A stretch of DNA of 59,150 nt, taken from the NCBI GenBank assembly GCA_016936255.1, contig JAFGYE010000110.1, forward strand, positions 1-59,150. Direction: 5' to 3'. This DNA comes from Marinifilaceae bacterium (GTDB taxonomy: Bacteria; Bacteroidota; Bacteroidia; Bacteroidales; Marinifilaceae). Below the pieces are notes generated by a model. That model had not been told where the DNA came from. It was given only the letters and a program-made list of their open reading frames with translations, and did no database searches. Below, piece by piece: positions 44,535-50,069 of the stretch (its first letter is position 1; every line of letters begins with the position of its first letter). The position numbers and the translations under genes were made by a program.

Positions 44535-45338
44535 ATGGAAATACATCAGATTACAATACAGGCAGGTATTGACAAGTTAGGCAATACGGAACGTTTGCCC
44601 GATTTGCGAATCAATAAAGGTGAAATATATGGAATTGTGGGACCTACCGGCAGCGGAAAAAGTCAGCTGATTGCTGATATTGAGCAGTTGGCACAAGGAG
44701 ATACGGCGAGCAAGCGCAAAATTTTAATTAATGGGGCAATTCCTTCCCATGAACTTCGGAGCAATCCCAGAAAGAAAATGGTGGCGCAATTGTCACAGAA
44801 TATGAATTTTTTCGCGGATATGCCCGTTGCCGATTTTTTGAAACTTCATGCCAGGTGCCGGGGGAAAAATAAGGTTGATATTAAGCAGGTAATTTCGATT
44901 GCGAATACACTTACCGGCGAGCCAATCAACGCAGGCGATAATCTAACAATTTTGAGTGGAGGACAAACCAGGGCTTTAATGGTCGCAGATGTTGCTATTA
45001 TCAGCGAATCGCCGATTGTTTTAATCGATGAAATTGAAAATGCCGGAATTAAAAAACATGAGGCTTTGCAGTTGTTGTCGGGAGAGGGGAAAATAATTCT
45101 TGTGGTTACTCACGATCCGGTTTTGGCTTTAAGCGCCCAAAAAAGAATTATTATGAGGAATGGCGGCATGCGCGATATTATAGAAAGTACGTACCGGGAG
45201 AAACAAATTTCTCTGCAATTAAATGATATCGATCAGTATATCTTGACTTTGAGAGAGGATGTGCGGGCGGGTAAAAAAATAGAAGAAGTCAATTTTGATG
45301 CATTGCTTCAAGAATCGAGTTTTTTGAAATGCTTATAA
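44535..45338 (+). CDS. Soluble ABC-type ATPase of an unnamed three-gene cluster
   Basis: The 267-residue protein has a complete nucleotide-binding domain: Walker A GPTGSGKS (36-43), Q-loop around Q88, signature LSGGQ (140-144), Walker B IVLIDE (161-166) and switch H193 (VVTHDP). In place of the usual DEPT it has DEIENAG. A helical tail of about 65 residues follows. No permease is encoded nearby, so it is probably not a transporter. It could be an energy-coupling factor like the ATPases that help activate metallo-enzymes. It lies 121 bp upstream of a CobW/HypB-like GTPase on the same strand. The function is not recognised. Confidence 0.8.
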
Positions 45339-45459
45339 TCGATGAGTGATTGAGTTGAACATGTGGAAATAACAGATTAGTGAAACGAGCCATGCAAAAT
45401 CATTTACTGCAACGAATAATGATTGCCAAGCTGTTTTCAAAGGTCTTAATTAGAAAAAT

Positions 45460-46161
45460 ATGAAATTTATTATTGTTGCCGGAACACCTGGTGCCGGAAA
45501 AACGGCTGTTCTGATTCACACCCTAAAAATATTATTGCAGCAGAATGTAAAGCCATCGGTTGTAAAGATCGACTGTTTGTATTCTGATGATCCCAAACGC
45601 TTTGCAAAATTGGGCATTCCGGTTCAATTGGGTTTGTCGATGGACATGTGTCCCGATCATTTCTCAATTTACAATACCGATGCAATATTGGAGTTTGCCA
45701 AAGAGCAAAATTCGGAGTTTCTGATTATGGAGACGGCTGGTTTGTGTCATCGATGTGCACCTTATACCGATAATAGTTTGGGTGTTTGTGTGATTGATGC
45801 GACCAGCGGACCCAATAATCCTATGAAAGTCGGTCCTTTTCTGAGTTGTGCTGATATTGTGGTGATCACAAAAGGCGATATGATATCGCAGGCGGAGCGG
45901 GAGATATTTCGGGAGTGTATTTTGGAAACCAATCCGAACTGCTCAATCATAGAGGCAAATGGATTAAGCGGACAAGGAGCTTCAGAACTGGCTTTGCAAA
46001 TTAAAAGTACTGAAAAAGTAGTGTCTGAAAATGAAAGTTTGCGGCACAATGCACCTTTTGCGGTTTGTACGCTTTGTGCGGGTGAAAAAAGAGTTGGTGC
46101 TGAACATCACCGTGGTTTGTTGCGCAAAATGAATGGCATGCAGGAATATGTAGGCGAATAA
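45460..46161 (+). CDS. CobW/HypB/UreG-like GTPase with Cys motifs
   Basis: The 233-residue P-loop GTPase has Walker A GTPGAGKT (8-15), a METAG G3-like motif (90-94), and TKGD (137-140) in the NKxD position, with the HypB-like run [14 protein letters not shown]. Possible metal ligands are C39 (DCLY), C64 (DMCPDH), the pair C96/C99 (GLCHRCAPY) and the pair C203/C206 (CTLCAGEK). Family knowledge: these GTPases deliver Ni, Co or Zn to enzymes or prime cofactor insertion. It is followed after 27 bp by a [4Fe-4S] protein gene. A chaperone role for a metallo-cofactor is inferred. No hydrogenase, urease or CODH gene is present. Confidence 0.82.
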
Positions 46162-46188
46162 GTTGTTGCTGTTTTAAGGAATAGAAAT

Positions 46189-46848
46189 ATGGAAAAAAAG
46201 ATAATAGAGTTTCTTCCCGGGTTCAATTGCGGGCGTTGCGGCTTTGGTGCATGTACTGATCTTGCTGAAGCGATTAAAGTTAAACCGTCAAGTCTGGATT
46301 TATGTCCTTTTTTGACACAGGAACGATTTATTGCTAATAAAATAGAAATTGGGAGATTAGTTGCGGGTGAGCCGAATGCTTGTCAGAAAAAAACAGTAGG
46401 AGTAATTGATGCTTACGAAGCTGATATTGTTTTGGATCCTCTGAAAGGAGAAATTTCATGCCGGGAAGTGCTGATGCCTATGGCTTTAGTTAAATTACAG
46501 ATAGGGGAAGTGATTGAGTACAGACCCTTGGGATGTCCGATAGTACATTACGGAAAAGTGATAAAGATTGATCATTTGTTGGTTACTGTACACCTGATTG
46601 GGCCGTGCAGAAGGAGAGAAAGCGAGACTAAGTTTACACCGGTGGGTTGTTGTATGGTCATTGCTTTTGAGGGACGGTTTCATGGGAAAAATGTAAAAGT
46701 GGGTGAAACGGTGAGGTTTTTACCAAAACATTGCATGATGCAAAAGGTTCACTCAGGAGTAGTGGTTAAAATTGAAGATGAGAATGTCCTGATTGAAGGA
46801 ATTGACTTGAAAGTGTGGCAGCCACCTGTTGTTCATGCTATTAAATAA
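46189..46848 (+). CDS. [4Fe-4S]-binding protein of the ATPase/GTPase cluster
   Basis: The 219-residue protein begins with the Fe-S motif C14-x2-C17-G-x3-C22...C39 (FNCGRCGFGACTDL ... LDLCPF), as in the PF04060 domain of the corrinoid Fe-S protein of acetyl-CoA synthase and in Rnf/RsxB-like proteins. The remaining 170 residues are beta-rich with more Cys (NACQ, SCRE, LGCPIVHYGK, GPCRRRE, GCCMV, HCMMQ). They do not match a domain I know. It ends the three-gene run and is followed by a terminator. It may accept electrons, or hold a metal or corrinoid target in an ATP/GTP-driven activation step; this is inference. Confidence 0.8.
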   Translation: MEKKIIEFLPGFNCGRCGFGACTDLAEAIKVKPSSLDLCPFLTQERFIANKIEIGRLVAGEPNACQKKTVGVIDAYEADIVLDPLKGEISCREVLMPMALVKLQIGEVIEYRPLGCPIVHYGKVIKIDHLLVTVHLIGPCRRRESETKFTPVGCCMVIAFEGRFHGKNVKVGETVRFLPKHCMMQKVHSGVVVKIEDENVLIEGIDLKVWQPPVVHAIK

Positions 46849-46854
46849 ATTTTT

Positions 46855-46895
46855 AAGCGCTCTTCGAGTTTTTTTAATCGCTTAGAGCGCTTTTG
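46855..46895 (+). terminator. Terminator of the ATPase/GTPase/Fe-S cluster
   Basis: AAGCGCTCT (46855-46863) pairs perfectly with AGAGCGCTT (46884-46892), followed by TTTT. Confidence 0.75.
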
Positions 46896-48486: not shown

Positions 48487-49131
48487 TTACACCTCAAAAA
48501 TGTGATTTTTAATGGCATAAATAACTAAAGATGCTGTGTTTTTCGATTGGGTTTTTAGCAGGATATTTTCACGGTGTTTGTCAACCGTACGTTTGCTGAT
48601 AAAGAGCATTTCGGCTATTTCCTGATTCGATAAGCCCTTGCAAATGTTGTATAGAATTTCAACTTCCCGCTGTGTTAAATCAGATTTTGAGGGCTGATTT
48701 TTTTTTCGGTTCAAATTGGCAATAATACTTTCCAATATTTCGGGTGAAAAATAGTTTCGTCCCTCCATAACGGCTTCGATGGCTTGCTGAACTTCTTCGA
48801 AACTGGAATTTTTCAGCAAAAAGGCTTTGGCTCCGGCATCTATCATCTCCGAATAATAATTCTCATTGGCATGCATCGAGAGAGCAATTATTTTGGAGGC
48901 TGGATATTTTTTCATCACCTCATTACTTGCCTCTATTCCATTCATTACCGGCATTTCAATATCCATAAGAATAATGTCAGCCTGCCAGTTGGCCAGCAAA
49001 TCCAATAATTCCTGACCATTACTTACTTCCTTAATTTCAGGTTTGCTGTTTTGATTGTTGAGAAGAAAGGATAGCCCTTCACGAAACAAATCGTGATCAT
49101 CAACCAGTGCCAATTTTAAAGCTTCAGTCAT
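48487..49131 (-). CDS. LuxR/NarL-type response regulator (first system)
   Basis: The 214-residue protein has a receiver domain with acidic pocket DDHD (11-14), phospho-acceptor D57 (LMDIEMPVMNG) and K near residue 107, then a LuxR-type HTH (about 150-210; TQREVEILYNICKGLSNQEI, then AEMLFISKRTVDKHR). It overlaps the kinase gene by 4 bp (49128-49131) and is its direct partner. The targets are unknown; the ammonium transporter locus is 1.6 kb away on the same strand. Confidence 0.93.
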   Translation of the reverse strand: MTEALKLALVDDHDLFREGLSFLLNNQNSKPEIKEVSNGQELLDLLANWQADIILMDIEMPVMNGIEASNEVMKKYPASKIIALSMHANENYYSEMIDAGAKAFLLKNSSFEEVQQAIEAVMEGRNYFSPEILESIIANLNRKKNQPSKSDLTQREVEILYNICKGLSNQEIAEMLFISKRTVDKHRENILLKTQSKNTASLVIYAIKNHIFEV

Positions 49132-50069
49132 GATATAGGTATTTCAATTTTGAGATAAACCCCTTCATTTTTCCTGCTGTTTATTTCAATGGTTCCGTCC
49201 AACGATTTTACCCTCGTGTGGATGTTCGATAAGCCCATTCCTTTTACCGGTTTTGGTTCCGTGGAAAAGCCGATACCATTATCACTATACATTAATTCTA
49301 ATTTCCGGTGATAGGTGAGGAGCGAAAGGTCGATTTTAGATGCCGAAGCATGTTTTATGGTGTTGTTGAATAATTCACCTATGATCCGATAGAGGATTAA
49401 CTCAACGTTGTAGTCGAAACGTTTTCCGCACAATTGAATATTCAATTGAATCCGGTATTGATCTGTCAGCTGAATTCCCCCTATAAATGTTTTAATGGCT
49501 TTTTCCAAACCATATCGTTCCAAAATATGCGGGCTCAATTTGTTCGATATCTCCTTAACGGTGATAATGGCTTCGTTGATGGCTTGATCTGTTTTGTGAA
49601 TGATTTGTTGGTTGTTTGGATTCTCAACAGACTTGTTTATCGCGGAGTTTGTCATTTTAACCGCAGAAAGGATAGGACCCAATCCATCGTGTAATTCTTT
49701 GGCAAAGCGGTAGCGTTCCTGTTCTTCGGTCTTGATAACTGCACTCAGCACTTTTGCTTCATTTTCTTTTCTCTCTTTATCTACCTTATCCTGCAGTTGA
49801 AAAATACGCCGAATGTAAAAAGCACCCAAAAACATGAGCAATGAAATTACTACAGCCATCCAGTTGGTGATGAATGTTTCCGGTTTGCTTTGGTTTGCAG
49901 TGAACACATTAAAAAGTTCTGTAAATCTGCGCACAGCCATTAGCAAGAAACCCATGGAAACCATAATCCAGGAGCTGTTGAAGCGTGTTTTTGGAATCAG
50001 GCTAATGGTAATGAAAAAAGCTCCGAATTGTAATAGAACAGATATTATTAGTGCAATTTGTAAAAACAT
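49128..50069 (-). CDS. NarX-like histidine kinase (first system)
   Basis: The 313-residue protein has three membrane helices (about 3-25, 33-48 and 70-90), a short coiled coil, a HisKA_3 domain with H127 in RFAKELHDGLGPIL, and HATPase_c (NNTIKHASASKI, DNGIGF, GMGLSNIHTRV). There is no periplasmic sensor domain of any size, so it probably senses a signal within or at the membrane. It is translationally coupled to the response regulator. Confidence 0.92.
   Translation of the reverse strand: MFLQIALIISVLLQFGAFFITISLIPKTRFNSSWIMVSMGFLLMAVRRFTELFNVFTANQSKPETFITNWMAVVISLLMFLGAFYIRRIFQLQDKVDKERKENEAKVLSAVIKTEEQERYRFAKELHDGLGPILSAVKMTNSAINKSVENPNNQQIIHKTDQAINEAIITVKEISNKLSPHILERYGLEKAIKTFIGGIQLTDQYRIQLNIQLCGKRFDYNVELILYRIIGELFNNTIKHASASKIDLSLLTYHRKLELMYSDNGIGFSTEPKPVKGMGLSNIHTRVKSLDGTIEINSRKNEGVYLKIEIPIS

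Follow-up and report, generated by a model that had tools for sequence, protein, structure and literature searches.

A conserved ABC ATPase, GTPase and Fe-S protein gene set of Labilibaculum and methanogens that seems linked to sulfite and sulfonate metabolism

In this study, we found that three adjacent genes in the genome of a Labilibaculum, a marine anaerobe (Bacteroidota; G000, 4.7 Mb), encoding an ABC-type ATPase, a CobW/HypB-type GTPase and an Fe-S protein, belong to a conserved set which, on the basis of its gene neighbours and genome-wide co-occurrence, seems linked to sulfite and sulfonate metabolism. The set lies in the window, by which we mean the whole 59,150-nucleotide stretch of DNA that was analysed. 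It is very likely the trio that the Fig. 2 legend of PMC12068725 describes beside methanogen coenzyme M genes as an ATPase, a Ni2+-binding GTPase and a COG2000 Fe-S protein, with its role given as unknown; the COG2000 label for the Fe-S protein is taken from that paper and not from a COG-model match of our own. The methanogen trio is already in print, and what is new here is its bacterial branch, a second type of the set, and the pattern of sulfite-fixing enzymes that goes with it. A search of titles and abstract beginnings within one library returned nothing on bacterial sets, and a whole-word search for COG2000 gave nothing relevant beyond PMC12068725.

Results

The three-gene set and its proteins

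Open reading frames and RNA folding confirmed that the three genes are co-directional and end at a hairpin (Table 1), as the initial annotation had described. The genes are separated by 121 bp (ABC-GTPase) and 27 bp (GTPase-Fe-S). The hairpin has a folding energy of -16.3 kcal/mol, matched by 2 of 200 shuffled sequences, and is absent from the list of a simple terminator scan which considers short loops only.

Table 1. Features of the three-gene set and its downstream neighbours in the window
Feature	Coordinates	Strand	Basis
ABC-type ATPase, 267 aa; LSGGQ, DEIENAG at Walker B; no permease in set	44535..45338	+	ORF call, Pfam, alignment
HypB/UreG/CobW-like GTPase, 233 aa; CPDH, two CxxC pairs, H217	45460..46161	+	ORF, Pfam, alignment, solved-structure match
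Fe-S protein, 219 aa; PF04060 (residues 9-41) and C-terminal beta domain (R112, C116, H120, C182, H188)	46189..46848	+	ORF, Pfam, alignment, AlphaFold
Probable terminator, hairpin then T's	46855..46892	+	Folding z -2.9
PiT-family permease (PF01384); also beside the set in L051, L052, L054 and L078	47257..48282	-	Pfam, tblastn
LuxR-type response regulator	48487..49131	-	tblastn
HisKA_3 sensor kinase, paired with the LuxR-type regulator	49128..50069	-	tblastn

Each protein contains one Pfam domain above its cut-off: ABC_tran in the ATPase (53.9 bits, cut-off 25), cobW in the GTPase (39.4 bits, cut-off 20.7) and PF04060 in the Fe-S protein (35.1 bits, cut-off 23). Among the NCBIfam matches listed, all three proteins stayed below the cut-offs. 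The ATPase has complete motifs, with Walker A, Q88, LSGGQ (140-144), D165-E166 and H193 kept in at least 97% of 65 aligned relatives, and no permease lies between or beside the genes as a conserved member, in agreement with its earlier description as an ABC ATPase without a permease. The two CxxC pairs reported for the GTPase are real (C96xxC99 and C203xxC206), and together with H217 and an additional invariant CPDH motif (C64 to H67) they are kept in at least 97% of 66 aligned relatives. The description of the third protein, an Fe-S motif followed by an unfamiliar Cys-containing domain, was borne out as well: in at least 97% of 76 aligned relatives the cluster cysteines C14, C17, C22 and C39 are conserved along with R112, C116, H120, C182 and H188, and the part outside PF04060 matches no Pfam family above cut-off.

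AlphaFold models were confident both for the whole Fe-S protein (pLDDT 88, pTM 0.66) and for the C-terminal part by itself (pLDDT 89, pTM 0.83), in which the C-terminal domain is a small all-beta domain, probably a barrel. Fold searches with the whole model and with this domain returned no solved structure at E<=0.001. An alignment of the C116/H120 region with the C182/H188 region (hhalign P 0.009, probability 4%; two control pairs 0.22 and 0.47) is no more than suggestive of an internal duplication. Without PF04060, the domain is also found in a 122-aa ORF (L049:9924-10292), whose surroundings include Pst-like genes and, judged by eye, thioredoxin-like ones.

The closest named relatives of the Fe-S protein in our scan are those of Labilibaculum euxinus (95% identity) and L. 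manganireducens (93%). It has no match in plasmids or phages and no relative in viral contigs, and a mobile origin of the set was rejected on these grounds.

Conservation of the set and its two types

A scan of named genomes yielded 175 relatives of the Fe-S protein, of which we kept the 80 that ranked best against the protein of the window; their neighbours were counted by tblastn, as ORF calling had missed some genes in GC-rich loci. The complete trio, with ABC and GTPase genes on the same strand as the Fe-S gene and at most 4.5 kb from it, is present in 65 of these 80 loci (best 80 of 175), so that adjacency of the three genes is common elsewhere, and the ABC gene is not regularly paired with a permease, which is no conserved member of the set. 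The rest of the best 80 comprise nine loci cut by a contig end and six otherwise incomplete (L062, L065, L075, L083, L087 and L127).

Assigned by best BLAST match, 35 of the best 80 of 175 loci are of the window's type, which is mostly archaeal (25 archaeal and 10 bacterial loci), and 45 are of a second type. A NifS-like cysteine desulfurase lies within 4.5 kb in 33 of these 45 second-type loci, in 28 of them between the GTPase and Fe-S genes, versus none of the 35 loci of the window's type (best 80 of 175). The two types are also split in a concatenated tree (61 loci, 688 columns, FastTree), which is rooted at its midpoint, so that the direction of transfer between archaea and bacteria is not read from it. 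In the window's half, the bacteria group with one Methanothermococcus genome and one of the Methanobacteriaceae, each of which has ComA (support 0.987, and 0.704 one node deeper); the other half holds Bacteroidales, Omnitrophota, Chloroflexi, Acidobacteria, one Thermoplasmata MAG and others. Full-length archaeal Fe-S proteins share 39-49% identity with that of the window, and in the tree the window's set nests among the archaeal sets. A possible third type is a further, related ABC-GTPase pair (proteins of 338 and 234 aa) at L031:12958-16694, and likewise at L078, on the strand opposite to the nearby trio, together with a small gene, cupin-like by eye, and a DUF1858 domain fused to a solute-binding domain (Pfam).

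Gene neighbours

In archaea, the set is frequently found with coenzyme M genes. At 17 of the 25 archaeal loci of the window's type, one lies no further than 5 kb from the Fe-S gene, and in 16 of the 25 the gene directly before the ABC gene encodes cysteate synthase (14) or ComA (2) (best 80 of 175). At L067, for example, cysteate synthase is followed by ABC, GTPase, Fe-S, ComD and ComE, with a converging HcyBio-family gene, while at L055 ComA (PF02679, E 9e-96) precedes the ABC gene, as does a 50% identical gene at L081. Five of the 25 archaeal loci have HcyBio-family genes no more than 5 kb away from the Fe-S gene (best 80 of 175). The other eight of the 25 (L062, L065, L069, L071, L077, L080, L083 and L097) have no coenzyme M gene within 5 kb (best 80 of 175). 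In the ANME-2 genome of L062 the Fe-S gene is elsewhere, and an ABC gene of 59% identity follows cysteate synthase on another contig.

Unlike the archaeal trio, the window's set is adjoined by a two-component system and a PiT permease instead of coenzyme M genes, none of which was recognised beside it; nor did coenzyme M queries match beside the sets of its close relatives L051 and L052. The sensor kinase and LuxR-type regulator adjoin the trio in eight of the nine named Bacteroidota loci of the window's type, L053 being the exception, and the PiT permease in four of the nine (best 80 of 175). At L032 (G207) neither is present, and Crp- and Rrf2-like genes are found instead.

Among the 45 second-type loci (best 80 of 175), 18 contain genes of sulfur-assimilation type in the kept flank (CysK-, CysE-, MetY-, PstS-, SufE-, MoeB-, CysH- or rhodanese-like), and 28 contain an Rrf2- or Crp-like gene. 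Of these names, MetY is over its cut-off, CysH is assigned by Pfam and CysE is below cut-off; CysK, SufE, MoeB, Rrf2 and Crp are what we take the respective neighbours to be. In L191 a Pst-like transporter is accompanied by CysD, CysN-like, CysK-like and CysH genes; in L225 its companions are CysD, CysN and CysH, and in L227 it stands with CysH. Because these PstSCAB-like transporters stand among sulfate-assimilation genes or beside CysH, they may carry sulfate, as may some other genes named as phosphate transporters.

Sulfite-fixing enzymes and co-occurrence

Each of the 12 bacterial genomes in which we found the window's type contains exactly one sulfite-fixing enzyme, either cysteate synthase (6) or ComA (6) and never both. 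In the window's genome it is cysteate synthase (TIGR03844; C16:6393-7592, loci L145 and L161, 496 bits, over cut-off). Coenzyme M synthase (TIGR03287) is over cut-off in none of the 12; one genome (G302) has a partial relative of 127 bits against a cut-off of 364.

We surveyed 295 Bacteroidales genomes, of which 17 are carriers, that is, contain a full-length match to the Fe-S protein (E<=1.4e-13), in 19 places; the matches in another 89 genomes are short and nearly all to the Fe-S domain. Cysteate synthase or ComA is present in 15 of the 17 carriers of either type, all but G022 and G167, versus 34 of 66 non-carriers, which were chosen by handle number and not at random (p 0.006). Among genomes of at least 3.2 Mb p was 0.026 in the same combined test, and 12 of the 14 carrier families had either enzyme. 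Seven tests involved the trio, the combined one being made later, and none is corrected for kinship. ComA alone is present in 9 of the 17 carriers versus 12 of the same 66 non-carriers (p 0.009), and in the 83 genomes compared it never occurs together with cysteate synthase. Cysteate synthase alone is not enriched (6/17 carriers versus 74/278 non-carriers, p 0.41), nor is the CapB-like gene (14/17 versus 195/278, p 0.41), for which reason a link to sulfonolipids through this gene was rejected. The CapB-like assignment is tentative, being based on the reported capB homologue of L. euxinus and on distance from a serine palmitoyltransferase model (305 of 640 bits). NIR_SIR showed no link to carrier status in the 295 genomes (p 0.30). 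CysH was weakly enriched (14/17 versus 147/278, p 0.02) when its strong set was split at E 1e-60, which leaves out 23 weaker rows, including that of the window's genome, and CysD (E<1e-120) is present in 14 of the 17 carriers. In the window's own genome CysD is present, the gene of a NIR_SIR protein stands next to a CysJ-like one so that the two resemble CysIJ, and CysH is matched only weakly (E 5e-37). Among the 15 non-Bacteroidota genomes with the second type, examined for cysteate synthase only, none has this enzyme over cut-off.

The survey also revealed further patterns in sulfonate genes. Across the 295 genomes CysH is common (184 at E<=1e-12) and NIR_SIR rare (19), and CysH tracks the CapB-like gene (163/184 versus 46/111, p 9e-18, uncorrected for kinship); it looks as though most sulfite went into sulfonolipids. 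An archaeal-type cysteate synthase scores over its cut-off in 80 of the 295 genomes and also in L. euxinus (G295); there it would seem a stronger candidate than the CapA homologue (32% identical) described in PMC12927429. ComA homologues occur in 20 Bacteroidales loci (L260-L279; 12 in carriers, 8 in non-carriers), and a related gene of about 460-510 aa adjoins the homologue in 19 of them. In the spirochaete genome of L059, a cysteate synthase gene is followed directly by a CapB-like gene with a partial match of 45% identity to that of Labilibaculum (L164:2049-4114), hinting at sulfonolipids outside Bacteroidota.

Discussion

The reading we favour, with a probability of roughly 0.4, is that the trio works as an energised redox unit in sulfite or sulfonate metabolism. 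In this scenario, the Fe-S protein would form or pass on sulfite, which cysteate synthase or ComA would then fix into an organic sulfonate, namely coenzyme M in methanogens and, probably, cysteate for capnine lipids in Labilibaculum. The PF04060 cluster would serve in electron transfer and the Arg/Cys/His site of the C-terminal domain in binding sulfur or a metal; the Cys/His-bearing GTPase may load this site, and the ABC ATPase may power assembly or electron transfer. In the second type, the NifS-like desulfurase would supply sulfur from cysteine. For the direction, the substrate and the metal of the reaction, this scenario gives what we infer.

This reading draws on the finding that two unrelated entry enzymes of coenzyme M synthesis, cysteate synthase and ComA, both of which use sulfite, directly precede the ABC gene. 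Since the bacterial carriers lack coenzyme M synthase over cut-off and all 12 have a sulfite-fixing enzyme, coenzyme M itself is disfavoured as the common factor, which leaves sulfite or a sulfonate. Both archaeal pathways and the bacterial carriers thus have in common an enzyme by which sulfite is joined to a carbon skeleton, which makes supply or handling of sulfite the best single reading. Several observations count against it. The 74 non-carriers with cysteate synthase indicate that sulfite fixation does not require the trio, and with CysH in 14 of 17 carriers, and CysD, a CysIJ-like pair and a weak CysH match in the window's genome, sulfite could come from sulfate. Carrier status was linked neither to cysteate synthase alone nor to NIR_SIR or the CapB-like gene. 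Furthermore, eight of the 25 archaeal loci (best 80 of 175) have no coenzyme M gene within 5 kb, and cysteate synthase is over cut-off in none of the 15 non-Bacteroidota genomes of the second type. The stronger proposal that the system is a new oxygen-independent enzyme forming sulfite from sulfide or persulfide, the missing source for coenzyme M in methanogens and one that anaerobic Bacteroidota and a spirochaete would also use to make sulfonates of their own, is doubtful. Also counting against the reading we favour, PMC10322725 reports that sulfide-grown Methanothermococcus thermolithotrophicus yields no sulfate, from which sulfide oxidation was taken to be absent; sulfate, not sulfite, was measured there.

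The desulfurase of the second type invites comparison with SUF-type Fe-S assembly, which employs an ABC ATPase, a desulfurase and an Fe-S protein, and to which the trio's permease-less ABC ATPase adds a further likeness. A sulfur-transfer or Fe-S assembly unit of such logic might mature a sulfur enzyme such as coenzyme M synthase, and the desulfurase in 33 of 45 second-type loci, 28 times between the GTPase and Fe-S genes, as well as the HcyBio-family genes near five of the 25 archaeal sets (best 80 of 175), would fit; we consider it fairly unlikely, as no desulfurase matched within 4.5 kb in the 35 loci of the window's type (best 80 of 175) and the proposed client is over cut-off in none of the 12 bacterial carriers, with one partial 127-bit relative. 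It is also unlikely that the trio acts towards sulfide, as a siroheme-free sulfite reductase or another reductase of sulfur assimilation feeding cysteine or methionine synthesis. CysK-, CysE-, MetY- or Pst-like genes in 18 of the 45 second-type loci (best 80 of 175) would suit this role, as would L191, where a Pst-like transporter stands with cysD, a CysK-like gene and cysH in a genome without a NIR_SIR match, and the 13 of 17 carriers which have CysH (E<1e-60) without NIR_SIR. However, CysH without NIR_SIR is found in 144 of the 295 genomes, of which just 13 carry the trio, for which reason we demoted a general missing sulfite reductase; moreover, the adjoining enzymes of methanogens consume sulfite, and the window's genome has CysIJ-like genes of its own. 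Direct reduction of sulfate to sulfite by the trio, in place of ATP sulfurylase and CysH, would agree with the anion transporters, PiT or Pst-like, that some Bacteroidota have close to the trio, but it is very improbable and was rejected as a main reading, since most carriers match CysD and CysH (14 of 17 each, at E<1e-120 and E<1e-60).

The initial annotation had proposed an ATP- and GTP-using machine for maturation or reductive activation of a metallo-enzyme or corrinoid protein. The parts are consistent with a redox or maturation unit that uses ATP and GTP, but the proposed target is not supported, as the neighbours and co-occurrence point to sulfite-dependent sulfonate synthesis and sulfur assimilation. 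A nickel or corrinoid enzyme as the client is quite improbable, although PMC12068725 calls the GTPase Ni-binding. The window's GTPase is closest to HypB and UreG, which share its nucleotide-binding domain and are its best solved-structure matches, yet it stays below the family cut-offs (49.5 bits against 121.2 for HypB, TIGR00073) and has its own conserved Cys/His set. Similarly, the Fe-S protein has the PF04060 domain in common with RnfB and with the large subunit of the corrinoid Fe-S protein, the closest match of that domain; this likeness, noted earlier, is confined to roughly the first 60 residues, the rest of the protein being a beta domain without a solved match at E<=0.001, and the gamma subunit model of acetyl-CoA decarbonylase/synthase scores 21.9 bits over residues 5-50 only (NCBIfam cut-off 306). 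On reading the locus neighbours, we recognised no corrinoid methyltransferase, CODH or nickel enzyme; the recurrent ones are PLP, TPP and sulfite enzymes.

In summary, a trio shared by methanogens and Bacteroidota seems to belong to sulfite and sulfonate metabolism. In favour of this for Labilibaculum, capnine lipids at 24-33% of the lipids detected, by peak area, and capABC homologues are reported in L. euxinus (PMC12927429). In methanogens, the trio bears on the source of sulfite for coenzyme M, which PMC6286981 and PMC5116941 call unclear or hypothesized. With sulfite or a sulfonate as the likely common factor, the role of the trio can be put to the test, genetically in methanogens or with the three small proteins expressed.
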